From the NCBI RefSeq assembly GCF_900078705.1, contig NZ_FKIF01000001.1, forward strand, positions 248,001-312,000: a stretch of DNA of 64,000 nucleotides. The letters run 5' to 3'. The notes below the pieces were generated by a model that made no database searches, had not been told where the DNA came from, and worked only from the letters and a program-made list of their open reading frames with translations. Shown here piece by piece: positions 3,085 to 37,999 of the stretch. Both the position numbers and the translations under genes were made by a program. Numbering within the stretch: position 1 is the first letter of the stretch; every line of letters starts with the position of its first letter. This DNA is from Bordetella ansorpii. Its GTDB lineage: Bacteria > Pseudomonadota > Gammaproteobacteria > Burkholderiales > Burkholderiaceae_B.

Positions 3085-5532
3085 TCATGCTTGTGTCGGC
3101 TCTGTCGCGGGCCGATAAGCCAGCAATCTCAGGGCATTGATCACCACCAGCAGCGTGGAGCCCTCGTGCACCGCCACGGCGGCGCCAATGCTCATTCCCA
3201 TGATGGTGGCCGGCACGAGGATGGCGACGACACCCAGGCTGACGAACACGTTCTGCCGGATGACCGCTCGGGTATGCCGGCTCAGGCCGACCGCGAAAGG
3301 CAGCTTGCGCAGGTCATCCGACATGAGGGCCACGTCAGCGGTCTCCAGCGCCACGTCCGAACCCGCCGCGCCCATGGCGATACCGACGGTGGCACTGGCC
3401 ATGGCCGGTGCGTCGTTCACCCCATCACCGACCATGGCGACCTTCGTCTCGGCCCCCATCTCCTTGATGGCATCGACCTTGTCCTGCGGCATGAGATCTC
3501 CCCATGCTTCGTCCAGGCCCACCTCGTCCGCGACGGCCTGCGCGACCTTCTGGTGATCGCCCGAGATCATGATCATGCGCGAGATACCGACGTCACGCAG
3601 CGCCTGCAAGGCTTCGCGCGCCCCTTCTCGGGGCGTGTCGAGCAGGCCGATCACGCCGAGATCACGACTGCCCATGCGCACCGCCATGGTCGTGCGGCCC
3701 GCGTTGCGCAGCGTGGTGATCGCGCGCTCGGCCTCGTTGCCCAGCGGCGCGCCATCCTGACCGAACCACTCCGCCTTGCCGACCCACACCGTTTCGCCGG
3801 CGACCCGGGCCATCAACCCTCGCCCCGTCAGGCTTTCGACGGCATCCGCGCGTAGGTCAAGCTCGGTCGCGTCCAACAACTCGCGGCCATCACGGGTGAT
3901 CGCTGCCGCCAGGGGATGATCGCTCTGCGATTCGACCGCCACCGCCACACGCAACAGCTCCTGCCTGGTCGTACCGCAGACGGGCATCACATCCGTGATG
4001 CGCGGACGGCCTTGCGTCAATGTCCCTGTCTTGTCGAAGGCCATCGCATCCAGGCCGCCGAGCATCTCCAGTGGCGCCCCGCCCTTGATCAGCACGCCGC
4101 CGCGCGCGGCCCGGGCAATGCCGGACAGCACCGCGCTGGGCGTGGCGATGGCCAGCGCGCACGGGCTGGCGGCCACGAGTACCGCCATGGCGCGATAGAA
4201 GCTGTCGCGGAATGGTTCATCGACCACGACCCACGAGAACAACATCGCCACCGCCAGCAACAGCACCGATGGGACGAAGATGCGTTCGAACCTGTCGGTC
4301 ATGCGTTGAGTGGGTGACTTCCGGACCTCGGCCTGGGCGACCATCTTCACGACACGCGCCAGCGTCGACTCCGAAGACAGCCGGGTGACTTCGATCTCGA
4401 TGGCGCTTGCGCCGTTGATCGTGCCAGCGAAGGTCCGGGACTGCGCATCGATGGCATCGGGACGCTGCCTTGCAACAGCAGGATCCGTCACCGGCCGCTT
4501 GTCCACCGGCATGCTTTCACCGGTGACGGGAGCCTGGTCGATGCTGGTCGTCCCCCGCGTGATGAACCCATCCGCCGGCACCCGCTCGTTGGGCCGCACG
4601 AGGATGACATCGCCCACGACCAGCTCATCCACGGGTATTTCGCGGGTCATGCCGTCGCGGCGCACCGTGGCGGTCTTGGGCGCCAGGGCTGCCAAGGCCT
4701 CGATGGCCCGCTTCGCACGCCCCATGGCGTAGTGCTCCAGCGCATGCCCCAGACTGAACAGGAACAACAGCAACGCGCCCTCGGCCCATGCTCCCAGCGC
4801 GGCCGCACCCGCCGCGGCCACCAGCATCAAGGTATCGATCTCGAAACGGCGCAGCCGCAGATTGTCCAAGGCCTCGCGCAACGTGAAGAAGCCGCCGGCC
4901 ACGTAGGCCGCCATGAAGCACGCCAACGGCAGCCAGGCCGCCAGGGCAGGCCAGAACTTCTCCACGGCGACGCCCAGACCCAGCAAGGCGCCGCATGCCA
5001 GGGAAAACGCCAACTCGCTGCGAGGACCAAGCCAGGCGCCATGATCGTGATTGTCCTCATCGCCACCGCGGGACGCATCCCGCGGGGCTTCAGCGGGCGT
5101 CACATCCAGGGATGCCAATTCGGACAGAATGACGCCCTCATCCACCCGCTGCCGGTCGAACTCCACGCGTACCTCGCCGGTGGCATCGACGTCTGCATCG
5201 ACCACGCCTGTCACCCCGCGCAGATGGGCACTCACGGTGGCGGCCCGCCGCATATGCGTAATGCCGCGCATGCGCCAGGCAGCATGGCCGAACCGTCCCG
5301 ATACCTCGGCGCCGGCGGCGATGACGATCGCCCGAATGCGGGACATCGACAGACGCTGCGGATCGTAGTGAATGCAAAGCTGCGCGGGCTGCCCCGCCGG
5401 ACTCTCTACATGCACACGCTCGACATCGCGACGCGCCTCGAGCGCGCCGATCAGTCGTGCGACGCAGGCATCCGAAGCACCGCTGGCAGCGGGTAGCACA
5501 ATGGGAACATCCAGGCGAAGGGTATCGGTCAT
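3085..5532 (-). CDS. czcP: P1B-4-type heavy-metal ATPase, CzcP-like
   Basis: ATP-driven inner-membrane metal exporter of 815 residues. Residues 1-150 resemble two HMA-like folds without CxxC. Catalytic landmarks are present: TGES (337-340), SPC (456-458) in the transport helix, DKTGT with D500, SDHPLA in the N domain, GDGVND (702-707) and HEGST (789-793) in the last helices. SPC plus HEGST is the P1B-4 signature, the class of CzcP and CoaT, so zinc, cadmium or cobalt is expected. It is the last gene of an operon with two glycosyltransferases, 21 nt after the second one. The colinear paralogue at 22775-25240 has lost these residues. Confidence 0.92.
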   Translation of the reverse strand: MTDTLRLDVPIVLPAASGASDACVARLIGALEARRDVERVHVESPAGQPAQLCIHYDPQRLSMSRIRAIVIAAGAEVSGRFGHAAWRMRGITHMRRAATVSAHLRGVTGVVDADVDATGEVRVEFDRQRVDEGVILSELASLDVTPAEAPRDASRGGDEDNHDHGAWLGPRSELAFSLACGALLGLGVAVEKFWPALAAWLPLACFMAAYVAGGFFTLREALDNLRLRRFEIDTLMLVAAAGAAALGAWAEGALLLFLFSLGHALEHYAMGRAKRAIEALAALAPKTATVRRDGMTREIPVDELVVGDVILVRPNERVPADGFITRGTTSIDQAPVTGESMPVDKRPVTDPAVARQRPDAIDAQSRTFAGTINGASAIEIEVTRLSSESTLARVVKMVAQAEVRKSPTQRMTDRFERIFVPSVLLLAVAMLFSWVVVDEPFRDSFYRAMAVLVAASPCALAIATPSAVLSGIARAARGGVLIKGGAPLEMLGGLDAMAFDKTGTLTQGRPRITDVMPVCGTTRQELLRVAVAVESQSDHPLAAAITRDGRELLDATELDLRADAVESLTGRGLMARVAGETVWVGKAEWFGQDGAPLGNEAERAITTLRNAGRTTMAVRMGSRDLGVIGLLDTPREGAREALQALRDVGISRMIMISGDHQKVAQAVADEVGLDEAWGDLMPQDKVDAIKEMGAETKVAMVGDGVNDAPAMASATVGIAMGAAGSDVALETADVALMSDDLRKLPFAVGLSRHTRAVIRQNVFVSLGVVAILVPATIMGMSIGAAVAVHEGSTLLVVINALRLLAYRPATEPTQA

Positions 5533-8055: not shown

Positions 8056-8110
8056 ACTCTATAAGTGGCGCTGCGACAATCCCTGGACTCGTACATTACA
8101 AATTTGAAAG
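8056..8110 (-). promoter_or_regulatory. Metal-regulon promoter of the GT2-ArnT-czcP operon
   Basis: The 16-bp box at 8095-8110 (ATTACAAATTTGAAAG on the plus strand) has one good half-site, ATTACA, and a weak second half. Exactly 33 nt away, reading toward the operon, lies TAGAGT (plus-strand ACTCTA, 8056-8061). The spacing is the same as in nine other promoters of the island. The -10 is 30 nt from the ATG at 8026. Confidence 0.6.
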
Positions 8111-8147: not shown

Positions 8148-11321
<3,174 letters not shown>

Positions 11322-12803: not shown

Positions 12804-14063
12804 TTATCGGCCAATGATGCGATCGATCTGCGCCCGGGCCTGATAAGCCTCGGCCAGAACGTTCAGGTAGGAGACGTTGCCCTGCGACAGCGCGCGCTGT
12901 GCGTCCAGGACTTCCAGGTAGCCCATCTTTCCGGCCTCGAAGCCTTTTCGCGCGGCGTCGAATGCCTGGGCCGCGCCAGGGAGCACGGCGTCCCGATACT
13001 CCTGCGCGGACGCCACGGCCAGGTCGTAGCGCGATGCGGCCTGAAGCAGTTCGGAGGTATTGCGGGCCGTCATGTCCCGATAGACGTCCTGCGCCTTGTA
13101 GGCGCGCATGGAGGCGGCATAGACGTTGCCTTGATTCCGATCGAACAAAGGCAACGGAATCGAAACGCCCACTTGTCCGCGATTGCGGCCCATCTCGTTG
13201 TCCCGCGCCACGCCAGCGCTCAGCGTGATGTCGGGAAAGCGCTTGCTGCGTTCGACCTCCAGTTCGGCCTGGCTCAGTTCCACAGTGGTGCGGCTGGACG
13301 CCATGCGCGGCGAAGCGTTCAGGCTGTTGCGCAGCTCGTCGAGCGAGGGCCGGGCCGGAAGACTGTCCAGATCGGCGTCGACTTTCTCGAATCCCGGCGT
13401 GCTCTCGCCCCAGGACAGCACCAGCGTACGGCGGGAGTCTTCCAAGGCGATCCGCGCCGCCCGCTCGGCCAGGCGCGCATTGCTGACCTCGACGTCCGCG
13501 CGAGTGCGCTCGATGGGCGCCGCCTTGCCAGACTCCACGCGTTGGGTCGCGATCCGCTGCGCCTGTCGCGCGACATCCAGCGAAATGCCCGCCACCCGGA
13601 CGTTTTCCTGTGCCACGGCGACGTCGAAGAATGCCGCCATGACCGATGCGCGCACCTCCGCGCGGCTGGCGTCGGCATCCAAACGCGCGACGTCGCGTGC
13701 CAGCCGTGCCGCTTCGGTCCGCGCGCCACGCTTGCCGCCCAACTCGATGGGCACGCTGAGCATGGTCGTGGTCGTGCGCGTCGCCTTCTTCTGGTCCTCG
13801 ACACTGACGTCCAGACTGGGGTTAGGGATCAGGCCCGCCTGCTCGAGCAGGCCATCCGCGGCCTTGGCCTCGTTACGCGCCGCGGACAACAGGGGGCTGT
13901 CTTCCAACGCACGATCCAGGGCTTGTTGCAGCGTCAGTACACCCGTGACCGACGCCGAGGGCTGAAGCACGGCGGACGCGCCGCTATCTCCAGATTGGGC
14001 CCACGCCGGCGGCGCGAGAAGACATAGCGCCGCGACCACGAGCGGCAAGGGCTTGAAACGCAT
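12804..14063 (-). CDS. czcC: Outer-membrane factor CzcC
   Basis: Outer-membrane channel of the CzcCBA efflux complex, 419 residues, TolC-like fold with two internal repeats of long amphipathic helices. The signal peptide is clear (MRFKPLPLVVAALCLLAPPAWA). ATG at 14063 is preferred over an upstream frame start at 14099. It is first in the czcCBA operon, about 88 nt after the -10 of its promoter, and divergent from czcRS. Confidence 0.9.
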   Translation of the reverse strand: MRFKPLPLVVAALCLLAPPAWAQSGDSGASAVLQPSASVTGVLTLQQALDRALEDSPLLSAARNEAKAADGLLEQAGLIPNPSLDVSVEDQKKATRTTTTMLSVPIELGGKRGARTEAARLARDVARLDADASRAEVRASVMAAFFDVAVAQENVRVAGISLDVARQAQRIATQRVESGKAAPIERTRADVEVSNARLAERAARIALEDSRRTLVLSWGESTPGFEKVDADLDSLPARPSLDELRNSLNASPRMASSRTTVELSQAELEVERSKRFPDITLSAGVARDNEMGRNRGQVGVSIPLPLFDRNQGNVYAASMRAYKAQDVYRDMTARNTSELLQAASRYDLAVASAQEYRDAVLPGAAQAFDAARKGFEAGKMGYLEVLDAQRALSQGNVSYLNVLAEAYQARAQIDRIIGR

Positions 14064-14150
14064 GATTCGACCTGACTGGGGGAAAGCGGCGCGACGCACG
14101 CAACGCTTGTAGAGAGAGGCGCCGGCAGAGGGTCGGCGGGAACGGCTGGT

Positions 14151-14226: not shown

Positions 14227-14281
14227 ATTACAACTTCGTAATCTGCCGGTAGGCGAATTGGCGAGGCCCCGTCCGTAGAAT
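14227..14281 (+). promoter_or_regulatory. czcRS promoter with metal-regulon box
   Basis: Box ATTACAACTTCGTAAT at 14227-14242 is one of the best copies and is followed 33 nt later by TAGAAT at 14276-14281, 80 nt before the czcR start. This predicts autoregulation of czcRS. Confidence 0.75.
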
Positions 14282-14360
14282 GACCGTCACGGGCCTACCA
14301 GACCCGATCCCAAGTGGCCTTGCGCGAACAAAAGACAGACCACGCATCGAGTGGCGACAC

Positions 14361-15053
14361 ATGAAAGTCCTGATCATCGAAGACGAGCGCAAGCTCGCGG
14401 AATACCTCAAGCGGGCGCTGTCCGAGCACAACTACGTCGTGGACGTGGCGTCGGACGGCATCAGCGGGCTGCACCTGGCCAAGGAGACGCAGTACGACCT
14501 GATCCTGCTGGACGTGATGCTGCCCGGCATGGACGGCTTCTCCGTCCTGGCCGAGATTCGCAAGCACGACCGCGTCCCCGTCCTGATGCTGACCGCCCGC
14601 GACAAGCTGGAGGACCGCGTGCGCGGACTGCAGGATGGCGCGGACGACTACCTCGTCAAGCCCTTTGCCCTGTCGGAACTTCTGGCCCGCGTCCTGGCGC
14701 TGGGACGCCGCCGGGGCAACGCCATCATCGAGCCCAGCCGCCAGAACGTCTTGAAGGTAGGTGACCTTGAACTGGACCTGTTGCGCCGCCGTGCCAACCG
14801 CGCCGGCGCGCGCCTGGACCTGACCGCCAAGGAATTCACGCTGCTGGCGCTGCTGATGCGACGCCAGGGCGAAGTGCTGTCCCGGCTGGATCTGGCCGAA
14901 CAGGTCTGGGACATCAATTTCAACAGCAACACCAACGTCGTCGAGGTGGCCGTGCGCCGCTTGCGCGGCAAGGTCGACGATCCCTTCCCGGTCAAGCTGC
15001 TGCATACGGTGCGCGGCATGGGCTATGTGCTGGAACTGCGAGACAACGAGTAA
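14361..15053 (+). CDS. czcR: OmpR-family response regulator CzcR
   Basis: Cytoplasmic two-domain regulator of 230 residues. The receiver has IIEDE, phospho-acceptor D51 (LLDVMLPG), switch threonine in MLTAR and the conserved lysine in DDYLVKPF. The C-terminal winged helix includes the recognition helix NSNTNVVEVAVRRLR. ATG at 14361 begins MKVLIIEDE; the frame is open upstream from 14280 but has no homology there. The stop overlaps the sensor kinase start by 1 nt. It should activate czcCBA through the box at 14190. Confidence 0.92.
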   Translation: MKVLIIEDERKLAEYLKRALSEHNYVVDVASDGISGLHLAKETQYDLILLDVMLPGMDGFSVLAEIRKHDRVPVLMLTARDKLEDRVRGLQDGADDYLVKPFALSELLARVLALGRRRGNAIIEPSRQNVLKVGDLELDLLRRRANRAGARLDLTAKEFTLLALLMRRQGEVLSRLDLAEQVWDINFNSNTNVVEVAVRRLRGKVDDPFPVKLLHTVRGMGYVLELRDNE

Positions 15054-19118: not shown

Positions 19119-19418
19119 ATGAAGGCACCCGTGAAATTCCTCTGCGCCGCGCTGGCGCTGGCCGCAACCTCGGCCGCATACGCCACATCCGCGTCGCAAC
19201 AGCCCGCCAACAACCAGGCCTACCAGCCGCGCGAATTGACTCGCGCGGAAGTGCGCGCCGATCTGGCCGTATGGAAGCGCGCCGGCATGGATGAATTCTG
19301 GCGCACCGACACCACGCCCGACATCTACAGCCGCGAGTACCGCACCGCCGAGGCTGAATATCGCCGCATGCGCAACGGCCCCGAGTACCAACAGGAACTG
19401 CAACGCCTGACGAAGTAA
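19119..19418 (+). CDS. DUF4148-family small secreted protein, copy 1
   Basis: Exported protein of 99 residues. A signal peptide (MKAPVKFLCAALALAATSAAYA) leads to LTRAEVRADLAVWKRAGMD, the DUF4148 motif common in Burkholderiales, and a C-terminal EYRRMRNGPEYQQELQRL segment. ATG at 19119 has AGAAGGAG upstream. Its function is unknown. It has its own metal-regulon promoter and a strong terminator, so it is an independent unit. Copy 2 is at 25635, and a divergent lipoprotein relative is at 19624. Confidence 0.85.
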   Translation: MKAPVKFLCAALALAATSAAYATSASQQPANNQAYQPRELTRAEVRADLAVWKRAGMDEFWRTDTTPDIYSREYRTAEAEYRRMRNGPEYQQELQRLTK

Positions 19419-22659: not shown

Positions 22660-22692
22660 CAGCCGACGCGCACGGGGCGTGTGCGTCGGCTG
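22660..22692 (+). terminator. Stem-loop after the second porin
   Basis: Ten-bp stem CAGCCGACGC with its complement at 22683-22692, ten nt after the porin stop. The T-run is weak (TTCTGC), so the terminator call is tentative. Confidence 0.6.
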
Positions 22693-22774
22693 TTCTGCGC
22701 ATATACCGACATTCCCACTAGGCACTCCACGCGATATGGCAAAGACGTTTTTCCTGAACGGGGCAAACCCATAC

Positions 22775-25240
22775 TCAAAGCGTCTTTGAACCAGCCACGG
22801 ATTGCATGGGCAAGAGCCGGGAAGGCAGGATCCGCACGGCATTGATTCCGATCAGCACCGTGCATCCGAACTGAAACGCCATCGCCGCTCCCATGCTCAT
22901 GCCCATCATGGTCGCCACGACTAGCGCGGCAGCAAGTCCAAAGCTGAGCAGGAGATTCAGTCTGATTACCGCATCCGCTCGCCGGGCGACGCCGACGACA
23001 AAAGGCAGCTTGTTCAGATCGCCGCTCATCATCACAACATCCCCTGTTTCCAAAGCCGTCCCGGAGTGCGCCCCCTCCATGATCACACTAACGGAGGCGG
23101 CAGCCATTGCCCGCTCGTCGTGAGCGCCAACGGATACCAAGGCGACGTTCCCGGCTCTCTCCAGCTCTTGAATGACGGCGAATTTAGACCGAGGCTTCAG
23201 GTCCCCCCACGCGTCATCCAGACCCACCTGTCGTGCGAGACGCTCTACCACAGGAGAATAGTCGCCGGAGACCACCACCAAACGTGCAATGCCCGCGTCA
23301 CGTAGAGTCAGCAGAGCATCCCTAGCGTCGTCCTTGGGCAAGTCCAATAGTCCGATTACACCCAGGTCCCTGCTTCCCAGCCGGACGGCCACGACCGTGC
23401 GCCCAGCGCTGCGCAGCATCCTGGTCGCATCCTCAACATCTTGACCCAGGGGAATGATGCCATCGCAGCCGAATATCTCTGGCTTGCCTATCAAAACCAT
23501 CTCGCCTGCAATCCATGCGCTCAGACCTTGATCCGCCAAGTTCTCCACCGCGTTTGCATGAAATGCCGGATCCGCCTCGTCAAGCAACGCGGCACCGTCG
23601 CGGGCAATCGCAATCGCGAGCGGATGTCCGCTTTGCGACTCGACGGCCACCGCCACATTCAGCAGTTCCCGCTGCGTGACGCCAAGAGCGGGCATGATGT
23701 CGGTAATATGCGGAAAGCCACGCGTCAAAGTACCGGTTTTTTCGAACGCCACGACATCCAGTCTGCCCAGCGTTTCCAACGGTGCTCCACCCTTGATCAA
23801 GACGCCATTGCGGACCCCGCACGCGATGCTGGCAAGCACCGCGCCGCGCGTGGCGATTGCCAACGCGAACGGACTTGCAGCCACGAGAAAGGCAATAGCC
23901 CTATAGAGGCTGTCGCGCAGTGGTACGTCAGCCACGACCAGCGACAACACAATCGTCGACGCCAGGATAAGAATCGTCGGAACGAGGATCTGTTCCAAGC
24001 GGTTGGCCATCCGCTGGATCGACGACGGCCTGGACTCAACCCTGCTGATCGACTCAACCATCCGCGCCAGAGTGGATTCGGAAGGCAGCCGCGTGATTTC
24101 GACCTCTATCGCGTGTGCCACATTCACGGTTCCTGCCAACACGCGAGATCCTGCCTCAATGGATTCAGGATTGCGTCTTGCCCAGGCAGCGTCGAGAGCG
24201 GCATATTTCTCGATCGGCGTGCTCTCCCCCGTCACCAACGACTCATCAAGGCCAGAGATACCCCGAACGACGAAACCGTCAGCTGGCACACGTTCGTTGG
24301 GCGAGACCATGACGACGTCACCAATCACCAACTCCCTCACCGGAACCTTCAGTAGTGCCTCTCCATCTCGCCGCACCACGGCCGTCGCCGGCCTCACCGC
24401 CGCCAAGGTATTGATCTCGCGCCTTGCCCAACCGATAGCCTTGCGCTCGACGGCATGGCACAAGCGAAACAGCAGCAGAACCAAGGCACCTTCTGACCAG
24501 GCCTCCAGCACGGCCGCTCCTGTGGCAGCCACCAACACCAGGCTGTCGATCGCAAATCGACGTAGCCGAAAATTGTCGAGCGCCTCCGTCAACGTATAAA
24601 GCCCGCCCGCCATATAGGCCCCGATGAAACACATCAGGGGCAGCCATCCGCCTGTTGCCGGCCAGAGCCATTCCGTTGCAACTCCCACGCACAACAGCAC
24701 CGCGCTTGCCAACATAGATGCGATCTCGCGGCGCTGTGCCAACCAGGCATTGCGCGCGTCCTTCTGATCGGGACGCAGGACATGCGTGTCACGAATCTCG
24801 AGCGGCAATACATCGATGGAAGCCAATTCGGACAGGATGGTCTCCTCATCGACTCGTCGTCGATCGAAGTCCACGCACACGATTCCGTTGGTCTCGACGG
24901 TTGCCTCAATCACTCCATCGATGTTCCGCAAATAGGAAGTAACCATTTCCGCGCGCCGCAGATGCGATATGCCTTTCATCTGCCAAGCGGTACGCCCAAG
25001 CTGGGCGGAGACCTCTGCGCCCGCGTCGGCAACGATGGCCCGGACTCTCGCCAGTGACAAACTTTGATAGGCGTAGTAGAGGGTGAGCCGTAAAGTGCCC
25101 GGACCACTGCAGTCCATATGTACGCGCTCGACGCCTGGACATGCGCTAAAGGCTGCAATCAACTTCTTGATACGGGTTTCCGGCGAACTGCAGACCGGAG
25201 GCAAGACAATGGGAACATCCAGGCGGCACGAAGCAATCAT
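22775..25240 (-). CDS. Catalytically dead P1B-4 ATPase paralogue
   Basis: Full-length 821-residue relative of the CzcP-like ATPase at 3085, colinear to the residue over the first 510 positions. Nearly every catalytic landmark is altered: SPC to SPF (456-458), DKTGT to EKTGT (E500 replaces the phosphorylated Asp), ATP to ATR in the transport helix, GDGVND to SVGAHD (703-708), HEGST to QFGCT (790-794). TGES (337-340) and the SGHPLA nucleotide motif remain. There is no stop or frameshift, and the gene has its own regulon promoter. A transport ATPase cannot work without the Asp; a sensor, chaperone or decoy role is inference. A recent pseudogene is less likely because the frame is open throughout. 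Confidence 0.9.
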   Translation of the reverse strand: MIASCRLDVPIVLPPVCSSPETRIKKLIAAFSACPGVERVHMDCSGPGTLRLTLYYAYQSLSLARVRAIVADAGAEVSAQLGRTAWQMKGISHLRRAEMVTSYLRNIDGVIEATVETNGIVCVDFDRRRVDEETILSELASIDVLPLEIRDTHVLRPDQKDARNAWLAQRREIASMLASAVLLCVGVATEWLWPATGGWLPLMCFIGAYMAGGLYTLTEALDNFRLRRFAIDSLVLVAATGAAVLEAWSEGALVLLLFRLCHAVERKAIGWARREINTLAAVRPATAVVRRDGEALLKVPVRELVIGDVVMVSPNERVPADGFVVRGISGLDESLVTGESTPIEKYAALDAAWARRNPESIEAGSRVLAGTVNVAHAIEVEITRLPSESTLARMVESISRVESRPSSIQRMANRLEQILVPTILILASTIVLSLVVADVPLRDSLYRAIAFLVAASPFALAIATRGAVLASIACGVRNGVLIKGGAPLETLGRLDVVAFEKTGTLTRGFPHITDIMPALGVTQRELLNVAVAVESQSGHPLAIAIARDGAALLDEADPAFHANAVENLADQGLSAWIAGEMVLIGKPEIFGCDGIIPLGQDVEDATRMLRSAGRTVVAVRLGSRDLGVIGLLDLPKDDARDALLTLRDAGIARLVVVSGDYSPVVERLARQVGLDDAWGDLKPRSKFAVIQELERAGNVALVSVGAHDERAMAAASVSVIMEGAHSGTALETGDVVMMSGDLNKLPFVVGVARRADAVIRLNLLLSFGLAAALVVATMMGMSMGAAMAFQFGCTVLIGINAVRILPSRLLPMQSVAGSKTL

Positions 25241-25299
25241 GTCAGCGCGTTATTTGAAATTTTAGAAATATCGGCATGCGTAATGGCGCGATGAAGACG

Positions 25300-25354
25300 A
25301 ATCTAGCCAAACGAGCCTGACGGAATCCGAACAGACCAATTACAAGTGCGTCAT
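25300..25354 (-). promoter_or_regulatory. Metal-regulon promoter of the dead ATPase gene
   Basis: Box ATTACAAGTGCGTCAT at 25339-25354, 33 nt, then TAGATT (plus-strand AATCTA at 25300-25305), 60 nt from the ATG at 25240. The presence of a canonical regulon promoter suggests that the gene is expressed. Confidence 0.7.
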
Positions 25355-25495
25355 TCTGGACGGGCTGATCCGCCCCCTCGGGTAAGCGAAACAGACTGCG
25401 CAAGAAACAGGAGAGGACAACGCCGCGTCTGATTGATTTCATCGTTTCTTCTTCATTCGGGCGGGCCTTTTTCTGTATCGGCAAATACCGGGATG

Positions 25496-25550
25496 CTGAC
25501 TAAAACGTAATGTCGGCGTGGGGTTCAGGTCGAGAACGCATAGATAGAAT
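25496..25550 (+). promoter_or_regulatory. Metal-regulon promoter of DUF4148 gene 2
   Basis: Box CTGACTAAAACGTAAT at 25496-25511, 33 nt, then TAGAAT at 25545-25550. The bases after the -10 (TTCTCTACGTTCTGATG) are identical to those at the first copy (19032 on). Confidence 0.7.
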
Positions 25551-25634
25551 TTCTCTACGTTCTGATGCACCAACGATCAACGTACCCAACGATCCGCCAC
25601 GTCTGTGTTGCGCGGACCTGTCAAGGAGCGATAG

Positions 25635-25934
25635 ATGAAAGCCCCCCTGAAATTCCTTTTTTCCGCGCTGGCACTCTGCGCAGCATCAGCCTCCTATGCG
25701 AGCACCTCGGCGCCGCGAACCGCGGACGCACAGGCGTATCAACCCCATGAACTGACGCGCGCAGAAGTCAAGGCCGATCTGGCCGTCTGGCGGCGCGCAG
25801 GGATGGACAAGTTCTGGCGCATGGAAAGCACCCCCGACATATACAGCCGCGAGTACCGCACGGCCGAAGCCGAGTACCGGCGCATGCGCAACGGCCCCGA
25901 ATACCAGCAGGAACTGCAACGCCTGACGCAATAG
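25635..25934 (+). CDS. DUF4148-family small secreted protein, copy 2
   Basis: Exported protein of 99 residues, a close duplicate of the one at 19119: signal peptide MKAPLKFLFSALALCAASASYA, motif LTRAEVKADLAVWRRAGMD and the same C-terminal EYRRMRNGPEYQQELQRL segment. AAGGAGCGATAG precedes the ATG. Promoter, leader and terminator hairpin are duplicated too, so a whole transcription unit was copied. Function is unknown; periplasmic location is predicted. Confidence 0.85.
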   Translation: MKAPLKFLFSALALCAASASYASTSAPRTADAQAYQPHELTRAEVKADLAVWRRAGMDKFWRMESTPDIYSREYRTAEAEYRRMRNGPEYQQELQRLTQ

Positions 25935-25985
25935 CCGACGATCCTGAGTTCCCCGCCCACCGCGAGGGAAAGACGCCTATTTCCA

Positions 25986-26017
25986 CGCATACCACTTCGG
26001 TGATATGCGTTTTTTTT
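25986..26017 (+). terminator. Terminator of DUF4148 gene 2
   Basis: Stem CGCATACCAC/GTGATATGCG, loop TTCG and eight T. It is the same hairpin as at 19472, with one non-Watson-Crick pair. Confidence 0.9.
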
Positions 26018-26179
26018 GCCGCTCACCTGGATGCACAAGAAATCTGCTGTGCGATCCATCGGTGCACCGCACACATAGTCTGTGCAAGCCGGTGGTACTC
26101 AGTAATGCAGCAAGCAGAAGCTGGCTTCCGCCTGCTGCAGGCTGCGGTGCAGAAATCAAGTCTCAACACCGCAGGCGGG

Positions 26180-26923
26180 CTACATGACGCGCTTGAGACC
26201 CTGGTAGTCGCCCTCGGTCTTCAGCGTGATCGTCACGTCACCCTTGGTCCGATTACGCCAGAACCAACCATGGTTGCCGTCGAACGCAGCCTCGATCTGG
26301 CCCTGGTCTTGCTCCACCTGCCGCCCCTTGCCGTAGCCATGGTAGAAATCCTTGGGCGGATTGACCGGATCTCCGTGAGTATCGAAGTTCACGGGTCCGC
26401 CGTTGGTCGTCCAGACGAATGCGACCTTGGCGCCCTGCTTCATCGCCATCTTGACTTCCGCGCCCTGCCCCGGCTTGAGCGTCAACGTCATCTGGTCGCG
26501 CTTGGCTGCCGCCGTTTGCGCCGGCGCGGCAGCCGCAGCGGGCGGCGCCTGTACGGGCGCCTGCGCTTGCACGGATGCGGGAGCCTGTATCGGCGCAGGA
26601 GCGGGCGCGGGACTCGGAGCAGGCGTCGGTGCCGGAGCGACCGCGGCAGGCGCCACGGCAGCGGCCTGCATGACAGGGGCGGTCGCCGGTGCCGCGCCGG
26701 CTTGCGCATCGGCCTCGGCTTCCTGAGCCAGCTGAACCTTGATCTCGCCCATCGACGTCAGCCCCAGAACACGGCCCGCGCCAGTCGGATCAATGCCGTA
26801 CTCACCAGGCAAGACGGTAGTCACCAGCAGCACGACGGCGACGCCGGCAGCAATCGCGGTGGAACGCAGCAACTGCGCGCTGGACGGCAGTTCGGCACGG
26901 GTAGGAATATCGGTGTTGTACAT
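26180..26923 (-). CDS. Transmembrane-anchored protein with Pro/Ala linker, metal-island associated
   Basis: Protein of 247 residues: a cytoplasmic N-terminal stretch, one transmembrane helix (about 22-40, STAIAAGVAVVLLVTTVL), a long Ala/Pro-rich linker (about 80-145) and a C-terminal domain with aromatic and Gly motifs (FVWTTNGGPVNFDTHGD and HGWFWRNR). AAAGGA lies upstream of the ATG. It follows the HupE-like gene by 15 nt in a three-gene operon. Proteins of this layout recur beside hupE in heavy-metal islands of Burkholderiales. The role is unknown; a periplasmic partner of the HupE-like permease is a guess. Confidence 0.75.
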   Translation of the reverse strand: MYNTDIPTRAELPSSAQLLRSTAIAAGVAVVLLVTTVLPGEYGIDPTGAGRVLGLTSMGEIKVQLAQEAEADAQAGAAPATAPVMQAAAVAPAAVAPAPTPAPSPAPAPAPIQAPASVQAQAPVQAPPAAAAAPAQTAAAKRDQMTLTLKPGQGAEVKMAMKQGAKVAFVWTTNGGPVNFDTHGDPVNPPKDFYHGYGKGRQVEQDQGQIEAAFDGNHGWFWRNRTKGDVTITLKTEGDYQGLKRVM

Positions 26924-26938
26924 GAAGCATCCTTTCTC

Positions 26939-27670
26939 TTAAGCGACGAAGTACCCGGTCAGCTGATATCCGATCAGCATGAACCCGGCGCACATCATGG
27001 CGACATTGGCGGTGTAGGCATGGCGCAGGAAGCTCGGCGAGCGGCGCCAGTAACCCATCAGGATCAGGATGGCGCCCAGCGCCAGCAGTTGCCCGATCTC
27101 CACGCCGACGTTGAAAGCCAGCAGGTTGGGAATCAGGCCATCGGAGGCGATCTCGTACTCCTGGATCTTCGTCGCCAAGCCAAACCCGTGGAAGAAACCA
27201 AACACCAGAGTGGCCGCCTTCGTGTTCGGCTGAACGCCGAACCAGCGCTGGAACGCACCGACGTTGTCCAAGGCCTTGTAGACCACCGACAAACCGATGA
27301 TGGCGTCGATCAGGTACGAGCTGACCGACGTTCCGATATACACACCCAGCAGCAAGGTGGTGGAATGGCCAATGGCGAAGAGGCTGACGTAAAGCCCGAT
27401 ATGGCGCAGCTTGTAGAGAAAGAAAATCACGCCGAACAGGAACAGCAGATGGTCATAGCCCGTGACCATGTGCTTGGCGCCCAGATAGATGAAAGGCAGG
27501 ATATGAACCCCGCTGATCTCCTGGATGTAGCCCTTGTCGCCTTCCGCCACGCCATGCGCGAAGGCAGTCGAGACGGACATGAGCAACAAGGCCAGGGCGA
27601 TGCCTAGCGAGGCCCAGCCAGGCAGGCGTAGCCCTGCCCGGCGTGCGCCGGGAAAAGAATGGATATGCAT
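26939..27670 (-). CDS. HupE/UreJ-family nickel/cobalt permease-like protein
   Basis: Polytopic inner-membrane protein of 243 residues. A signal-like first helix ends in AFAHGVAEGDKG, leaving a periplasmic His near the mature N-terminus; HupE/UreJ motifs follow, including GYDHLLFLFGVIFF, FAIGHSTTLLLG and GFFHGFGLA with conserved His residues. Family members move Ni or Co, and direction is uncertain here. It sits between a small CzcI-like gene and the anchored protein gene, with an RcnR-type palindrome upstream of the operon (28239-28259). Confidence 0.85.
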   Translation of the reverse strand: MHIHSFPGARRAGLRLPGWASLGIALALLLMSVSTAFAHGVAEGDKGYIQEISGVHILPFIYLGAKHMVTGYDHLLFLFGVIFFLYKLRHIGLYVSLFAIGHSTTLLLGVYIGTSVSSYLIDAIIGLSVVYKALDNVGAFQRWFGVQPNTKAATLVFGFFHGFGLATKIQEYEIASDGLIPNLLAFNVGVEIGQLLALGAILILMGYWRRSPSFLRHAYTANVAMMCAGFMLIGYQLTGYFVA

Positions 27671-27730
27671 GAATGAACCTGAAAAACGGTTGAGCTGAAG
27701 TGCCCTTTCGGGCAGGGCGAGTCAACGCGG

Positions 27731-28102
27731 TCAGGTCAGGTCTGGCGGACGCTCGTCTTGGCGCACCGGGGCGCCATAGGGCGATTGAAAATAGCCGCTC
27801 AGGTAGCGCTGCGAAGGCGGCTGCCAATAGGCGACTGAACTCGTCAGGTAGAGTTTCTGCTCATGCGAATGGTCTTCGCTGTAGTGATCCAGGAATGCGA
27901 CAGCCGCTGCGGCGCGGACCTCCGTACTCTCGCCCGCCACCTGCGGCGGCGCCTCATCGATGTCGTGGACATGGCCGTGATAGACATGCCCTGCTCCGCC
28001 CGTGTGGGTCGATGGGCCGAACAGAGGCACCACGGCAACCACGAGCGCCAAGACGCTCATGACAACCGCGAACCAGCATCTGATCGGCAACAACGCCTTC
28101 AT
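27731..28102 (-). CDS. Small CzcI-like membrane/periplasmic protein, copy 1
   Basis: About 123 residues from ATG at 28102 (MKALLPIRCW): one hydrophobic N-terminal helix, a His-containing middle (HVYHGHVHDID and HYSEDHSHEQ) and a C-terminus with DERPPDLT. This layout, ending in a Pro-Pro motif, resembles CzcI-type proteins that precede metal efflux genes. The frame is open up to 28183, so ATG at 28132 is possible. It is first in the operon with hupE and the anchored protein. Assignment to CzcI is by layout only. Confidence 0.6.
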   Translation of the reverse strand: MKALLPIRCWFAVVMSVLALVVAVVPLFGPSTHTGGAGHVYHGHVHDIDEAPPQVAGESTEVRAAAAVAFLDHYSEDHSHEQKLYLTSSVAYWQPPSQRYLSGYFQSPYGAPVRQDERPPDLT

Positions 28103-28238
28103 GAATCCACAAAACCTCTTCGCTACCACCATGGCACCGCCGCGATGGTTCGTGGCGGTGCTTACGTCACCGAGATGATCCATGGCTTACGTGGATGGCG
28201 ACTTCAGAGCACATTCACGCGGGCAGATCCTGGCGAAA

Positions 28239-28259
28239 CCATCCTCCCCTAGAGGATAA
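28239..28259. promoter_or_regulatory. RcnR/CsoR-type operator of the HupE operon
   Basis: CCATCC-N9-GGATAA with a C-rich core (TCCCCTAGA). It has the same 21-bp layout as the palindromes at 37973-37993 and 38100-38120. C/G-tract palindromes flanked by AT inverted repeats are the known operator type of RcnR/DmeR proteins, and an RcnR-type gene lies 1 kb away. Confidence 0.65.
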
Positions 28260-28337
28260 CTGCTTCATGCCTCTTGTACAACGTCAGCGTTTTCGGCTTG
28301 GTCTGCAGGTTAACTCCCACCAGGGATAGCGCCCACG

Positions 28338-29027
28338 TCATACGTTGCGAAGCTCCAGGGTATACCCCATGCCACGCACCGTATGAAGCAGCTTGACGCC
28401 GAACGGATCATCGATCTTCGCGCGCAATCGCTTGATTGCAACCTCGACGATGTTCGTATTGCTGTTGAAGTTCTTGTTCCATACCTGCTCCGCCAATACA
28501 AGCCTGGATACGACCTCTCCTTGCCTGCGCATCAGCAATGCCAGCAAGCCGAACTCCTTGGCGCTCAAGTCGATACGCGCACGGCCCCGGGATACCCTTC
28601 GCCTCAACAGATCCATCTCAAGATCGCCAACCCTCAGGAGGTTCTGTGCTCTTACGCCGCAGCCCTCCCCTTTCACTCGCCGCTGGATAGCGACGATCCG
28701 AGCCAGCAACTCTGGAAAGGCAAAGGGCTTGAGCAAGTAATCATCGGCGCCTTGCTCGAGCGCCCGTACACGCAGAGACAGGTCGTCCTGCTCGTTCATG
28801 GCGATGACCGCCACGGCATCGTGAACACATAATCCATCCAGCAATTCGAATCCATCCATATCCGGCAGGAGCAGATCGAGGAGGATCAAATCGTATTGGG
28901 TCTCGCGGGCCATGCACAGGCCACTGACGCCATCCGAGGCGATATCGGTGAAATAGGCATTCTCCGTAAGACCGCGGCGCAAGGCTTCGGCCAGAGGCTG
29001 TTCGTCTTCGATAACGAGTACTTTCAT
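28338..29027 (-). CDS. Orphan OmpR-family regulator with altered receiver
   Basis: Regulator of 229 residues and no adjacent kinase. D51 (LLDLLLPD) and K100 (DDYLLKPF) are present, but the MLTAR motif reads AMNEQ: the switch threonine T78 is Asn. The winged helix carries NSNTNIVEVAIKRLR, close to CzcR. ATG at 29027 (MKVLVIEDE). The promoter at 29058-29112 has the island box. It is the second regulator here with a probably uncoupled receiver. Confidence 0.85.
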   Translation of the reverse strand: MKVLVIEDEQPLAEALRRGLTENAYFTDIASDGVSGLCMARETQYDLILLDLLLPDMDGFELLDGLCVHDAVAVIAMNEQDDLSLRVRALEQGADDYLLKPFAFPELLARIVAIQRRVKGEGCGVRAQNLLRVGDLEMDLLRRRVSRGRARIDLSAKEFGLLALLMRRQGEVVSRLVLAEQVWNKNFNSNTNIVEVAIKRLRAKIDDPFGVKLLHTVRGMGYTLELRNV

Positions 29028-29057
29028 CTATGTACTGACAGAGTGATCTCTGCCCAT

Positions 29058-29112
29058 ACTCTAGCGAGCGGACATAGTCGGGAAACCTACGACCGCATTA
29101 CGAATATGCCAT
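29058..29112 (-). promoter_or_regulatory. Metal-regulon promoter of orphan regulator 4
   Basis: Box ATTACGAATATGCCAT at 29097-29112, 33 nt, then TAGAGT (plus-strand ACTCTA at 29058-29063), 31 nt from the ATG. The second half of the box is weak. Confidence 0.6.
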
Positions 29113-29232
29113 TACCATGCAGTCTTCCCGTAATCCTGGCGACAGAATCCGACAGGCTCCGCCCCCACATGGCCCATAGCCCGCCAAAACGCACCAACGC
29201 CGTCCTTATCCTCTTCTGTGTATGATCCTGCC

Positions 29233-29520
29233 ATGACTGCGCATCCCGACGACCATCTCCACCATCATCACGATGCCGTGGCCAAACGGCTCAAGCGAGC
29301 CGAGGGCCATCTGCGAAGTATCCTGCTGATGATGGAGAACGGCCGCTCCTGCCTGGACCTTGCCCAGCAACTTCATGCGGTGGAAAAGGCCATTTCCCAG
29401 GCAAAGAAAGTCCTGATACAGGACCATATCGACCATTGCCTGGAAGACGCCGTCGGCGAAGTCACGGCGGAGAACCGCCAGACCATAGACGAGTTCAAGG
29501 CGATCACCAAGTACCTCTGA
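29233..29520 (+). CDS. RcnR/DmeR-type (CsoR family, DUF156) nickel/cobalt-sensing repressor
   Basis: All-helical cytoplasmic repressor of 95 residues. The N-terminus is His-rich (HPDDHLHHHHD), followed by AKRLKRAEGHLRSIL (DNA-binding helix), the metal Cys in GRSCLDLAQQL, and His residues in IQDHIDHCLED, which match the His/Cys ligand layout of RcnR/DmeR rather than copper-type CsoR. ATG at 29233 is preferred to 29218. Predicted targets are the three 21-bp palindromes near the HupE operon and the rcnA/RND divergent promoter. Metal release of repression is inferred from the family. Confidence 0.85.
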   Translation: MTAHPDDHLHHHHDAVAKRLKRAEGHLRSILLMMENGRSCLDLAQQLHAVEKAISQAKKVLIQDHIDHCLEDAVGEVTAENRQTIDEFKAITKYL

Positions 29521-29541
29521 TCCGTCGCTGTGAACCCGCTC

Positions 29542-30909
29542 CTAGGCGTCCTGGCTACCATCAGGCACCGGTTCACCAGGCAGTGTCAGCCCGATGGTCG
29601 TCAGCCGGCCTTCCGACCGGCAGAAACCCTTTCCACCGTGCATACGGGCGATCGCGGACACAATGGCAAGTCCGAGCCCCTGGTGCTCGGCGTGATCGCC
29701 ACGGGATTCGTCCGCACGGTAGAACCGATGGAACAGCAAAGGCAGGTGTTCCGGCGGCAGCGGATCACCATGATTGATGACTTGTACCGCCAACTCCGGC
29801 TGTTCAAGCACCTCGATACGAACGACCGTTCCGCGGTCAGCGTAGCGCAACGCATTGGATAGCAAATTCGACGCGGCACGCTGCAGCAGACTGCGGTCCA
29901 GCATGGCGCTCGCCTCACCGGATACCAGCACAGACACCCCTGCTTCCTCGGCTAGCGCCTCGTAATACTCGACCACCTCTTCCAGCGCGCCAGCGACGCT
30001 ATCCACCCGGCTTCGGCGGGCCTTCGCACCTCGGTCCGCTCCTGATAGGAACAGCATGTCGTTGACGATCTCGGCAATGTGCTGGGCATCTTCCAGACTG
30101 GACGCCAGCACGTCGCGCAGTGCCTTCGCATCTTGACGCGTGCTCAACGCCAACTCGATGTTTCCCACCAGCGTGGCCAGCGGCGTACGCAACTCGTGCG
30201 CGACGTCCATATTGAAAGACTCCAACTGGATATAGGCGAGCTCCAATCTCTGCAATACAGAGTTGAACTCATCAACCAGAGGTTGAACTTCAGTGGCCTG
30301 TCCCGTTCCATCCAGCCGCTGCCCCATTGTGTCGGCTGCGATGCCCTTCGCCTGCCTGCCCAGAGTATCCAGGGGTCTCAACCCACGGCCCACGACGAAG
30401 GCGGCGCTGGCCGAGACCGCTATGGCTCCTCCCAATGCGCAAGCAAACAACGTCCACGCCAATGCCGTGCTGAGCTTGGCATCGGCCGACACATCCATGG
30501 ACAGCTTGGCCGTCATGAACTGGCCCGGCCTGCTCAGGTCCGGCAGCAGCATGCCCAGCGAACGCTGATGGTGAACCAAGGGCTCCGCGACGACGAACGG
30601 ATTGCCGAAACCGGGCGGCCCGCCAGGCAAAGCAATCTCGAGGTAGAAATCGGAGCTTCTGGCAAACAGATCGGTGAGGCTGTGCTGCAGGATTCGAGCA
30701 TCTTTCCCGCTAGCCTCGTGCTCGCTCACGAGATGGGCGACAACTTCGCCTTTCTGCTCGAGCAGGCCATCCTGACGCAGCGCCAGATTGAGATTGGCAA
30801 AGATGTACACGGCAATGCAGACAATGCCGAGCACGATGAACGTCTGGGCGGCCAGCCAGGATGATAGTTGCGCCCCCAGAGACCGTGGTGTCGTGTCTGG
30901 CGCCCTCAT
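29542..30909 (-). CDS. Metal-sensing histidine kinase of the second RND cluster
   Basis: CusS/CzcS-type inner-membrane kinase of 455 residues. Helix 1 (about 17-37) and helix 2 (about 158-180) flank a periplasmic domain; HAMP is followed by FNMDVAHELRTPLATLVGN (H box), NLLSNALRYA (N box) and HQGLGLAIVSAIA (G box). Its ATG at 30909 overlaps the regulator stop as ATGA. It forms a pair with the regulator at 30906-31604 and is the last gene in a long minus-strand operon with RND2. Confidence 0.88.
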   Translation of the reverse strand: MRAPDTTPRSLGAQLSSWLAAQTFIVLGIVCIAVYIFANLNLALRQDGLLEQKGEVVAHLVSEHEASGKDARILQHSLTDLFARSSDFYLEIALPGGPPGFGNPFVVAEPLVHHQRSLGMLLPDLSRPGQFMTAKLSMDVSADAKLSTALAWTLFACALGGAIAVSASAAFVVGRGLRPLDTLGRQAKGIAADTMGQRLDGTGQATEVQPLVDEFNSVLQRLELAYIQLESFNMDVAHELRTPLATLVGNIELALSTRQDAKALRDVLASSLEDAQHIAEIVNDMLFLSGADRGAKARRSRVDSVAGALEEVVEYYEALAEEAGVSVLVSGEASAMLDRSLLQRAASNLLSNALRYADRGTVVRIEVLEQPELAVQVINHGDPLPPEHLPLLFHRFYRADESRGDHAEHQGLGLAIVSAIARMHGGKGFCRSEGRLTTIGLTLPGEPVPDGSQDA

Positions 30910-31604
30910 TCCGGGGCCCGGAGCTCGCATACATAGCCCATTCCCCTGACGGTATGGAGCAACTTCAACGGGAACGGGTCGTCGACCTTGGAGCGCAGAC
31001 GCCGCATCGCCACCTCGACGACATTGGTGTTGCTGTTGAAATTGATGTCCCAGACCTGCTCGGCCAAGGTCATGCGAGACAACACGTCGCCCTGGCGTCG
31101 CATCATCAAGGCCAGAAGCGCGAACTCTTTTGAGGTCAGGTCCAGCCTGCGCCCTCCCCGGGTGGCCTTGCGCGCGAGCAGATCCATCTGCAGATCCGCA
31201 ACCTCCAGCTTCCCAGACGGCACGGTGGCATCGGTAGCGCGCGACCCACCGCGCCTACCCAGTGCGAACACGCGCGCCAGCAGTTCCGACAGGGCGAACG
31301 GCTTGGACAGATAGTCGTCAGCGCCCTCATGCAGCCCGGTCACCCGGTCTTCGATCCCGCCTCTCGCAGTCAAGATCAACACTGGCGTCTGCTTGCTCGT
31401 GCGAAGCCTGCGCAACACCTCGATTCCATTCATGCCAGGGAGCATCCAGTCCAGCAAAATGACGTCGAACTCCGATTGCTCGGCACAGTGCAGTCCGCTG
31501 ATCCCGTCATGCACGCATTCGACGACATGGCCGTGCTCTTGCAAGGCACGCTGCAGGTAGTCGGCCAATTTCTCTTCGTTCTCTACGACCAGAACTTTCA
31601 TCAA
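30906..31604 (-). CDS. OmpR-family response regulator of the second RND cluster
   Basis: Regulator of 232 residues, coupled to the kinase at 30909. The phospho-acceptor Asp (LLDWMLPG), switch Thr (ILTAR) and Lys (DDYLSKPF) are present. The acidic pocket reads ENEE where VEDE is usual, so one magnesium-binding Asp is replaced by Asn. The recognition helix is NSNTNVVEVAMRRLR, matching CzcR. A double Met start leaves 31604 or 31601. It should control the RND2 operon it belongs to. Confidence 0.87.
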   Translation of the reverse strand: MMKVLVVENEEKLADYLQRALQEHGHVVECVHDGISGLHCAEQSEFDVILLDWMLPGMNGIEVLRRLRTSKQTPVLILTARGGIEDRVTGLHEGADDYLSKPFALSELLARVFALGRRGGSRATDATVPSGKLEVADLQMDLLARKATRGGRRLDLTSKEFALLALMMRRQGDVLSRMTLAEQVWDINFNSNTNVVEVAMRRLRSKVDDPFPLKLLHTVRGMGYVCELRAPE

Positions 31605-31706
31605 TCACTATCCTGACTGTTAAGTCTCCCGGACGCACGAGACAGGCGAGTCCAGCCAAGGGCCGAACCGCCAGCTCAGTGCAGGATCCGCACGCAGACC
31701 GCCCGG

Positions 31707-32939
31707 TCAATCCCTTTCCAGATCCCAGATCAGATGACCATCCACCAGCAGCTTGTAGCTCGCCTTGAGCGCGTCGGTGCGCGCCGCCAGCGCACTGCTG
31801 GCCGCCGTCAGGTCCTGGCGCCTTGCCATCAAGAGTCCTTGCAAGTCGACTTCACCCAGCGTGTATGCACGCTGCATCAGCGCGGCGTTCTTCGCCAGCA
31901 TTTCCGCGTTCTGCCTCGCGACATCGGCGGTCAGCATGGCGCCACGGGCGGCGGCGATATCACTTGCCACGTTGGCATCCAACTGACGCCGCTTCAACTC
32001 CAGCCCCTGATACGACACATCGGCGCTGGCCGCGGCTTGATCCGCACGCTTGAATCTTGCACCACCAGGAATCGGGATACTGACCCGAACGCCCCAGTAC
32101 CGCTCAGCTCCGCCGCGCTCCGACGCCCTGAACAAGCCCACGGTAGGATCGGGAAATCGCTCCGCACGGGCACGGGCAGCGGCGGCCTGAGACTGCACCA
32201 GTTGTGCCCGCGTCATGTCCAGCTCCTCGCTGTAATCGATGACACGCCTGCGCAGTTCCCCGTCGTCCAGAGGCAGTTCAAGCGGTTGGGGCAACTCGAT
32301 AGCCTCTCGCAATACGCCAGGAAAGCGCAACGACAGACGAGACCAGGCGATATCGCTCAACGTAGCGGCCTGCAATCTCTGGCGGTTCTGGTCGGCCAAC
32401 TCGGCTTGCGCCAACCCAAGATCCAAGCGCGAGGCATCGCCCGCCTTGACCCGCTTCTCGACCGCTTGCACGCCGCGCTCCACGGCCTGCAGATTGTCTT
32501 GCGCCAGCTTTCTCGCGGCCTCGGCATGAAGCCAATCGATCCAGAGCGTGGCAAGCTCCGACGCGGAGTTGTGGATCGCCGCTCGATAACTTGCCCGAGC
32601 CTCGGCAAGTACACCTCCCGCCATGTCGCTGTCGGCCGCCGCCTTGCCCGGCAAGCGGATGGTGCGATCGACGCCCACGTTCCATTCGTTGAAGCGCTCG
32701 CCCCCCTCGGCATTGCGGCGCTGGGCACTGACAGAGGGCGTCCATTCGTAGGGCGAGTCCTCCAGAATGCCGGCGGCGTTACGCGCCACACGCAAATTGG
32801 CCGTGGCGGCCGCCACCGCGGGATCCTTGGACAACAAATCTCGGACCGCAGCGGTATCCGGCATTCCGGCAGATTGTCCGTACACCGGGGCAGCCGCGCA
32901 CACAAGCAGCAGCGCGGTAATCAAATATGCTCGTTTCAT
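31707..32939 (-). CDS. Outer-membrane factor of the second HME-RND pump (CzcC-like)
   Basis: TolC-fold outer-membrane channel of 410 residues with a signal peptide (MKRAYLITALLLVCAAAPVYG) and long Ala/Arg/Gln-rich helices in two repeats. Its ATG overlaps the stop of the DUF3240 gene (ATGA), showing tight coupling. The order MFP, RND, DUF3240, OMF, regulator, kinase defines one operon. It pairs with the RND at 33228. Confidence 0.86.
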   Translation of the reverse strand: MKRAYLITALLLVCAAAPVYGQSAGMPDTAAVRDLLSKDPAVAAATANLRVARNAAGILEDSPYEWTPSVSAQRRNAEGGERFNEWNVGVDRTIRLPGKAAADSDMAGGVLAEARASYRAAIHNSASELATLWIDWLHAEAARKLAQDNLQAVERGVQAVEKRVKAGDASRLDLGLAQAELADQNRQRLQAATLSDIAWSRLSLRFPGVLREAIELPQPLELPLDDGELRRRVIDYSEELDMTRAQLVQSQAAAARARAERFPDPTVGLFRASERGGAERYWGVRVSIPIPGGARFKRADQAAASADVSYQGLELKRRQLDANVASDIAAARGAMLTADVARQNAEMLAKNAALMQRAYTLGEVDLQGLLMARRQDLTAASSALAARTDALKASYKLLVDGHLIWDLERD

Positions 32940-33235
32940 CGCTGAGCTCCTTGCGTGACCGCGAAGCGCCAGCTCAGCAGTCCGGATTTTCCGAAGCCGC
33001 TTGCGATCAGTTGTTCGATCGTGTCAGCTTGAACGGCAGTGCACAGCACACGAATCTCGACCGCCATGGCGCGGCCGAGGACTTGCTCGGCCTGGCTCAG
33101 TGGGCCAAAGGCTACGCCATGCGCGGCCGTGGCCTGCCGTATCACGACCGGAGACGGCTCCATGACCAACAGCATGTCCTGAATGTTTTCTTCGACGGCT
33201 GGAGAGCAAAGTACAGTGAGGCAGGTGTCAAACAT
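32936..33235 (-). CDS. DUF3240-family small protein
   Basis: Soluble protein of 99 residues (MFDTCLTVLCSPAVEENIQD), ferredoxin-like or PII-like in size, matching the DUF3240 family found between the A and C genes of many HME-RND operons. It overlaps the RND gene by 8 nt and the OMF gene by 4 nt, so it is translated with the pump. Family function is not established; a cytoplasmic accessory role for the RND trimer is a guess. Confidence 0.75.
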   Translation of the reverse strand: MFDTCLTVLCSPAVEENIQDMLLVMEPSPVVIRQATAAHGVAFGPLSQAEQVLGRAMAVEIRVLCTAVQADTIEQLIASGFGKSGLLSWRFAVTQGAQR

Positions 33236-37438: not shown

Positions 37439-37538
37439 GGAAATCTCTGATGCGCCAGGCAGGCGCGCAAGCTCTCGCGCGCGAGTCGCGAGCGGGTTGG
37501 TAGATCAGCCCTTTAGATGGGCGAGGGCGTCAGGGGGA

Positions 37539-37895: not shown

Positions 37896-37972
37896 GTGGC
37901 TTGCAATGGAGTCCATGGAGTAGGGAGAGCACCTGCGGATCGGTCGTTCGTCCATCCCATGTCTGGCGGATC

Positions 37973-37993: not shown

Positions 37994-37999
37994 GGTCAA

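Follow-up and report, generated by a model that had tools for sequence, protein, structure and literature searches.

A gene for a full-length P1B-4 ATPase that has lost motifs of the pump cycle was found in Bordetella ansorpii, within the 64,000-nucleotide stretch of DNA analysed here (the window, to which all coordinates refer). The gene, designated DEAD (22775..25240, minus strand, 821 aa), was assigned from its open reading frame, translation, Pfam and TIGR01525 matches and alignment as a putatively catalytically dead, CzcP-type P1B-4 ATPase paralogue. Its counterpart, designated ACT (3085..5532, minus strand, 815 aa), is a CzcP-type P1B-4 paralogue that is presumably active, as its motifs are intact. 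The most likely reading, held with about even confidence, is that DEAD is an expressed, non-catalytic paralogue. The gene would represent a pump that has, unusually, become a protein without pump activity, or else a fading pump gene, and the finding is interesting but unproven.

Both frames had been called in the original prediction and were confirmed by the open reading frame list and translation; that of DEAD runs from an ATG start over 821 codons with no internal stop. BLAST gave 55.1% identity between the two proteins over 809 columns (366 of the 813 aligned residues differ), and 17 kb separate their genes, which share a strand. A search of the same genome returned no third close copy; the match ranked next reached 32% identity. 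DEAD contains the Pfam domains E1-E2_ATPase and Hydrolase, aligns with the solved P1B-4 ATPase sCoaT (PDB 7qbz) over residues 180-806 (E 8.5e-150) and is homologous to the P1B-4 (CzcP/CoaT) family across the A, P, N and M domains. It belongs to the same length class as CzcP of Cupriavidus metallidurans CH34, a P1B-4 ATPase encoded on pMOL30 (46% identity over 98%), and its residues 5-150 match the CzcP N-terminal metal-binding domain (PDB 4u9r). As the TIGR01525 score of DEAD (400.7 bits) exceeds the cut-off of 346.25, annotation pipelines are likely to call it a working pump under the name heavy metal translocating ATPase. The structure predicted from a three-row alignment was of insufficient quality to tell whether the fold is preserved (mean pLDDT 42.3, pTM 0.33).

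A working pump of this family carries the phosphorylated Asp in DKTGT, SPC in M4 together with HEGxT in M6, and GDGxND, which we take to have a role in the working P1B-4 pump. At these places DEAD reads EKTGT, SPF, QFGCT and SVGAHD, and the alignment with ACT reproduced all four changes of the original prediction. Codon 500 (23741..23743, minus strand) is GAA and places Glu at the position of the phosphorylated Asp (D500E), which aligns with the catalytic D369 of sCoaT. Codon 458 (23867..23869, minus strand) places Phe at the Cys of SPC in M4 (C458F; the sCoaT motif starts at S325). The GDGVND motif (residues 703-708; 23117..23134, minus strand) has undergone the substitutions G703S, D704V, V706A and N707H, with G705 and D708 unchanged, and the HEGST motif of M6 (residues 790-794; 22859..22873, minus strand) the substitutions H790Q, E791F and S793C. 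TGES is kept, as had been claimed (residues 337-340; 24221..24232, minus strand). The further claim that an SGHPLA motif is retained was correct for its His and Pro but not for the motif as a whole: ACT has SDHPLA and its Asp is invariant in relatives, so D538G counts as a further loss. G570D alters GRG, a motif of the nucleotide domain.

The losses extend to metal ligands. Sixteen Cys/His sites are conserved in at least 80% of relatives; ACT has 13 of them and DEAD four (H41, H93, H262 and H539), nine of the 13 having been replaced (C23R, C53T, H55Y, H83R, H161D, C179S, H266R, C458F and H790Q). An earlier suggestion that the protein senses or buffers metal was weakened by these data, with C458, H790, E791 and most conserved Cys/His gone; since the transport-site ligands are lost, such a function at the transport site is unlikely. 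Alterations in both metal-site motifs (M4 and M6) as well as in the phosphorylated Asp, GDGVND and GRG make transport and phospho-enzyme formation by DEAD very unlikely on sequence grounds. The same alterations speak against a transporter of a changed kind, which would move some substrate by other chemistry or use Glu500 in the role of Asp. This alternative draws on the unchanged TGES, K686, D633, D708, S456-P457 and M2 Glu (E250), and on the 11 Cys of DEAD against six in ACT, and we regard it as improbable.

Pma1 is the yeast proton pump, and its D378 is taken here to be the phosphorylated Asp. According to the part of the Pma1 report available (PMC3692421), D378E is a dominant lethal allele, a further argument against a functional Glu500, and proteins from the dominant lethal alleles, such as D378T, hetero-oligomerise with the wild type. 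The D378E, D378N and D378T proteins described in that part resemble DEAD in being full-length P-type ATPases without the phosphorylated Asp but differ from it in being laboratory-made, misfolded and lethal. By analogy with these Pma1 D378 proteins, which do so via misfolding, a dead P-type ATPase may act on a live one. In the comparison with sCoaT (PDB 7qbz, 7qc0), the M2 Glu120 is kept in DEAD as E250, whereas other residues stand at the positions of D369, the SPC Cys, H657 and E658; the accessible part of the sCoaT study describes H657 as crucial to function and E120A as lowering activity (PMC8880997). A scan for EKTGT[L/F]T, the Glu form only, in 398 genomes of the order yielded 22 occurrences in 20 genomes. 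By motif content DEAD was the only one in a P-type ATPase context, most of the other 21 stretches belonging to one unrelated protein family. The Asp form of the same stretch occurred 229 times in a 60-genome sample of the order.

The extent of loss was then assessed over the whole protein. Of 28 loci fetched for comparison (L010, L038-L055, L059-L067), L043, L051 and L052, identical to kept rows, and L041, 14 residues from L040, were left out of the tree and the counts; the remaining 24 with DEAD and ACT made 26 rows, and later matches (L091-L105) lie outside this set. A position was scored as invariant when it showed no variation, gaps aside, with at least 18 rows filled, and domain borders were assigned by us. 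Of 249 positions that ACT and 23 relatives share without variation, DEAD has lost 82, more than chance would give. When each protein was left out in turn, the losses were 81 of 247 for DEAD and 0-12 (0-4.6%) for each of the 25 active proteins. The invariant sites kept were 5/10 and 5/5 in the first and second N-terminal parts, 1/2 in the linker, 26/36, 23/40 and 19/33 in MA-M2, M3-M4 and M5-M6, and 22/30, 20/21, 15/17 and 31/55 in A, P1, N and P2. The losses were uneven across the nine domains with at least five sites (chi-square P 0.006). They were concentrated in M3-M4, P2 and M5-M6 (55/128 versus 27/121 elsewhere; Fisher P 0.0007), a grouping chosen after the counts had been seen. Residues 476-615, likewise a block picked post hoc, lost three of 38 invariants versus 79 of 211 elsewhere (Fisher 1.5e-4); a permutation in which the block was free to move gave P 0.007, and a variance test 0.035. 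The three losses within this block, D500E, D538G and G570D, all fall in catalytic or nucleotide motifs. Gene conversion was considered as a source of the well-kept block and was not clearly indicated, four-fold sites differing between DEAD and ACT at 30/55 (0.55) in the block versus 0.616 overall.

When sites were grouped by degree of conservation, beginning with the highest class, DEAD kept the ACT residue at 168/252, 109/180, 99/166, 41/104, 20/83 and 7/20 (67, 61, 60, 39, 24 and 35%), and the active L059 at 249/253, 150/179, 113/160, 43/112, 21/83 and 3/18 (98, 84, 71, 38, 25 and 17%). Such nearly flat loss across the conserved classes is what broad relaxed selection would give. It is close to our hand estimate for decay (67, 62, 57, 42, 34 and 28%), obtained from half the L059 divergence plus a uniform loss of 32%. 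These data bear on the alternative that DEAD is a decaying gene: a second working CzcP would have lost its use and, with selection relaxed, would be drifting with its promoter as a leftover, stops and frameshifts having been avoided by luck or purged, as broken membrane proteins are harmful. We place this alternative close behind the preferred reading, as a real possibility that falls short of probable. The loss of a third of the invariant sites, in nearly every domain, and the lower GC at third positions (0.68 in DEAD, 0.81 in ACT) fit it; the near-flat losses, the lower GC3, the nine lost Cys/His and the lack of a clear Shine-Dalgarno site upstream of the ATG, as judged by eye, count against a non-catalytic role.

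What decay accounts for less well is the state of the frame. DEAD and ACT align throughout with no frameshift, only five one-codon gaps and a longer C-terminus in DEAD separating them. Neutral drift was simulated from ACT to 82 losses under five mutation settings of 200 runs each; the mean number of stops was 8.8, 8.9, 10.1, 13.0 and 7.1, and no run ended with zero stops, the number found in DEAD. Replacements at the lost invariant positions were also mild, with a mean BLOSUM62 score of −0.10 versus neutral means of −0.52 to −0.72 (sd 0.15-0.17); the highest mean in any run was −0.11, so no run matched the mildness observed, with a small margin in one setting. Under these tests, which rest on simple mutation models with ACT as the starting point, simple neutral decay fits DEAD poorly. 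The absence of stops and frameshifts, the mild replacements, the well-kept block 476-615 and an intact promoter all weigh against decay. A pseudoenzyme would combine lost catalysis with a selected frame; DEAD shows no stops and mild, uneven losses, yet its invariant sites are widely lost.

The proportion of four-fold sites that differ is 0.616 for DEAD and ACT (a distance of about 1.5) and 0.074 for ACT and L010, the ACT copy of the sister species, so the separation of DEAD from ACT long predates that of the two species. NG86 gave dN 0.356, dS 1.51 and dN/dS 0.235 for DEAD-ACT, and dN 0.0107 and dS 0.0887 for ACT-L010. With L059 as outgroup, arithmetic on the NG86 values assigned a dN of about 0.29 to the DEAD branch and about 0.065 to that of ACT; with dS split evenly, dN/dS would be near 0.39 and near 0.09, respectively, rough figures since synonymous sites are near saturation. 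The pairwise value is below 1, but it comes from a near-saturated pair and mixes any period of activity with the time since catalysis was lost, over the whole split. A pseudogene would show a disrupted frame or dN/dS near 1; the frame of DEAD is open and the pair average is 0.235, figures compatible with a recent start of decay.

The phylogenetic distribution of DEAD was narrow. No close relative was found among 15 genomes of the genus, nor, among strong matches, in 268 genomes of the family, 399 of the order, 369 of the class, 60 of the genus of genome G572 and 398 of the phylum (overlapping sets). The best matches over these sets were ACT and L010 at 55%, followed by matches of at most 51%. 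Among the best 5000 plasmid records listed the top match was 48% identical, and a viral collection gave nothing usable. A pattern scan of 84,980 species, in which genomes very near that of the window may be absent, returned one relative at 30% identity; as the scan needed an exact stretch of eight residues, an orthologue of about 75% identity could escape it. Genomes of the order with a CzcP identical to that of CH34 were present. Conserved dead copies in several genomes, the support proposed for selection on DEAD, were therefore missing: no orthologue with the same losses occurred in the collections searched. The idea of selection on a dead copy retains the frame that outlasts simulated drift, the uneven losses and the gene's own promoter, but not shared losses in orthologues. 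Confinement to one species in these collections, together with absence from the sister species, favours decay. It would also suit a sequencing or assembly artefact, which we consider very improbable, as 366 residue differences from ACT in an unbroken frame are unlike read errors and the assembly (6.2 Mb, 10 contigs) is rated 100% complete.

The identity of DEAD to 27 relatives other than ACT and L010 was 39.6-50.4%, and that of ACT to the same 27 was 51.1-70.9%. In the tree of 26 rows DEAD grouped with ACT and L010, its end branch measuring 3.0 versus a median of 0.27, at a weakly supported fork that carries a long-branch warning. The placement agrees with shared residues: ACT differs from the residue most common among the relatives at 105 sites, and of these DEAD matches ACT at 44, the relatives at 18 and neither of them at 43. 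In the sister species (G001), DNA comparison showed that a 2.7 kb segment with DEAD and its promoter (22692..25425) is absent from an otherwise colinear region (97-98% identity across 1-22691 and 85-93% across 25426-26899), with some 57 bases in its place. No second copy was found elsewhere in that genome and no convincing remnant of DEAD in the gap, where, besides flank matches, a 17-base match (E 0.006) lay in the right flank. The segment was either lost by the sister species or gained by the present host.

DEAD has its own copy of a putative metal-regulon promoter, which supports, at the level of sequence, the regulon promoter claimed in the original prediction. A pattern scan located the box ATGACGCACTTGTAAT (25339..25354, minus strand), one mismatch from ATTACNNNNTNGTAAT, and the coordinates place a −10-like TAGATT exactly 33 bases past it (25300..25305, minus strand). 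A box at 8095..8110 (minus strand), with a −10-like TAGAGT 33 bases on, precedes a gene run of two glycosyltransferase-type genes followed by ACT, which probably form one operon. With up to two mismatches, ATTACNNNNTNGTAAT matched 22 times in the window versus 2.8 expected, both strands being searched and a palindromic site counted twice. The fixed form of this inverted-repeat box, 33 bases and a TAGAAT-like −10 occurred at five strict sites: 25354 (minus) before DEAD, 8110 (minus) before the run that ends in ACT, 14205 (minus) before czcCBA-like genes (8148-14099; Pfam OEP, HlyD_D23 and ACR_tran), 14227 (plus) before a response-regulator gene (14280-15053) and 29112 (minus) before another (28338-29027). 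No site occurred at gaps of 20-32 or 34-45, nor in 30 shuffles; because some of these sites had already served to define box, gap and −10 by eye, the fit is not independent and the shuffles are the guard against chance. A sigma-70 scan found no promoter for DEAD, the regulon promoter being of another form. In the parts available of two reports, promoters of the LciR/CusR/CopR/CzcR type resemble the present box and −10 (PMC6989116, PMC11195947), and the Legionella lciE promoter likewise has an inverted repeat, ATTACAAnnTTGTAAT, before its −10, with short conserved stretches between (PMC6989116). The 33-base gap, by contrast, was measured in the window and a few comparison loci only, and the regulator here is putative. 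The accessible part of PMC10127602 describes CH34 CzcP as a zinc exporter whose gene is under the metal two-component regulator CzcR. DEAD may share such two-component regulation, as far as its promoter sequence tells, and differs from CH34 CzcP in lacking the phosphorylated Asp, the metal-site residues and GDGVND.

Open frame, kept N/P1 block and promoter favour a protein that is made and partly constrained; missing orthologues and the loss of so many invariant sites speak for a gene that is disappearing. Under the preferred reading of an expressed, non-catalytic protein, DEAD would have arisen as a paralogue of the nearby CzcP-type ATPase and lost residues for each main step of the pump cycle (the M4/M6 metal site, the phosphorylated Asp, GDGVND and part of a nucleotide motif). 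Its frame and part of its sequence would have been held by selection and its copy of the metal-regulon promoter kept. Upon a rise in metal, DEAD would most likely be made in the membrane alongside the working pumps and act without catalysis; our best guess is that residues 86-150 and 476-615, which are better kept, mediate contact with CzcP or with another membrane protein of the czc system. The sequence itself shows the losses and their non-random distribution, the open frame and the promoter match; expression, metal induction and stability of the protein, any partner and any effect on metal resistance are inferences from these. The narrower proposal that DEAD is a natural pseudo-pump, induced with the CzcP regulon, binding no metal at the transport site, forming no phospho-enzyme and tuning CzcP or czc by contact alone, is tentative and rather doubtful. 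Kinases and phosphatases without catalytic activity have known regulatory roles. A natural pseudo-ATPase of the P-type was not found in the literature searched, a coverage that excluded most subscription journals. If made and of effect, DEAD would represent a new kind of metal-efflux control.

Several further features of the window were recorded. Two small related DUF4148 genes (19119-19418 and 25635-25934, plus strand) share 76% identical DNA over 300 bases and each has a looser promoter copy upstream (18977 and 25496, plus strand); other looser sites occur elsewhere in the window. A region of about 14 kb (26900-40843) that holds response regulators and another RND efflux set lacks a colinear counterpart in the sister species, where colinearity resumes at 40844. 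The region 40850-53311 encodes, close to a phage-type integrase, a HATPase_c_3 protein (681 aa) and a protein of 1576 aa with a NACHT C-terminal domain, with GC3 of 0.46-0.65; PADLOC gave no match for three genes of the 40-49 kb stretch, and the region may be an undescribed defence island. At 3085-8026 (minus strand), czcP (ACT) lies behind the two glycosyltransferase-type genes (Glycos_transf_2, PMT), an arrangement that resembles CH34, where glycosyltransferase genes also adjoin czcP.
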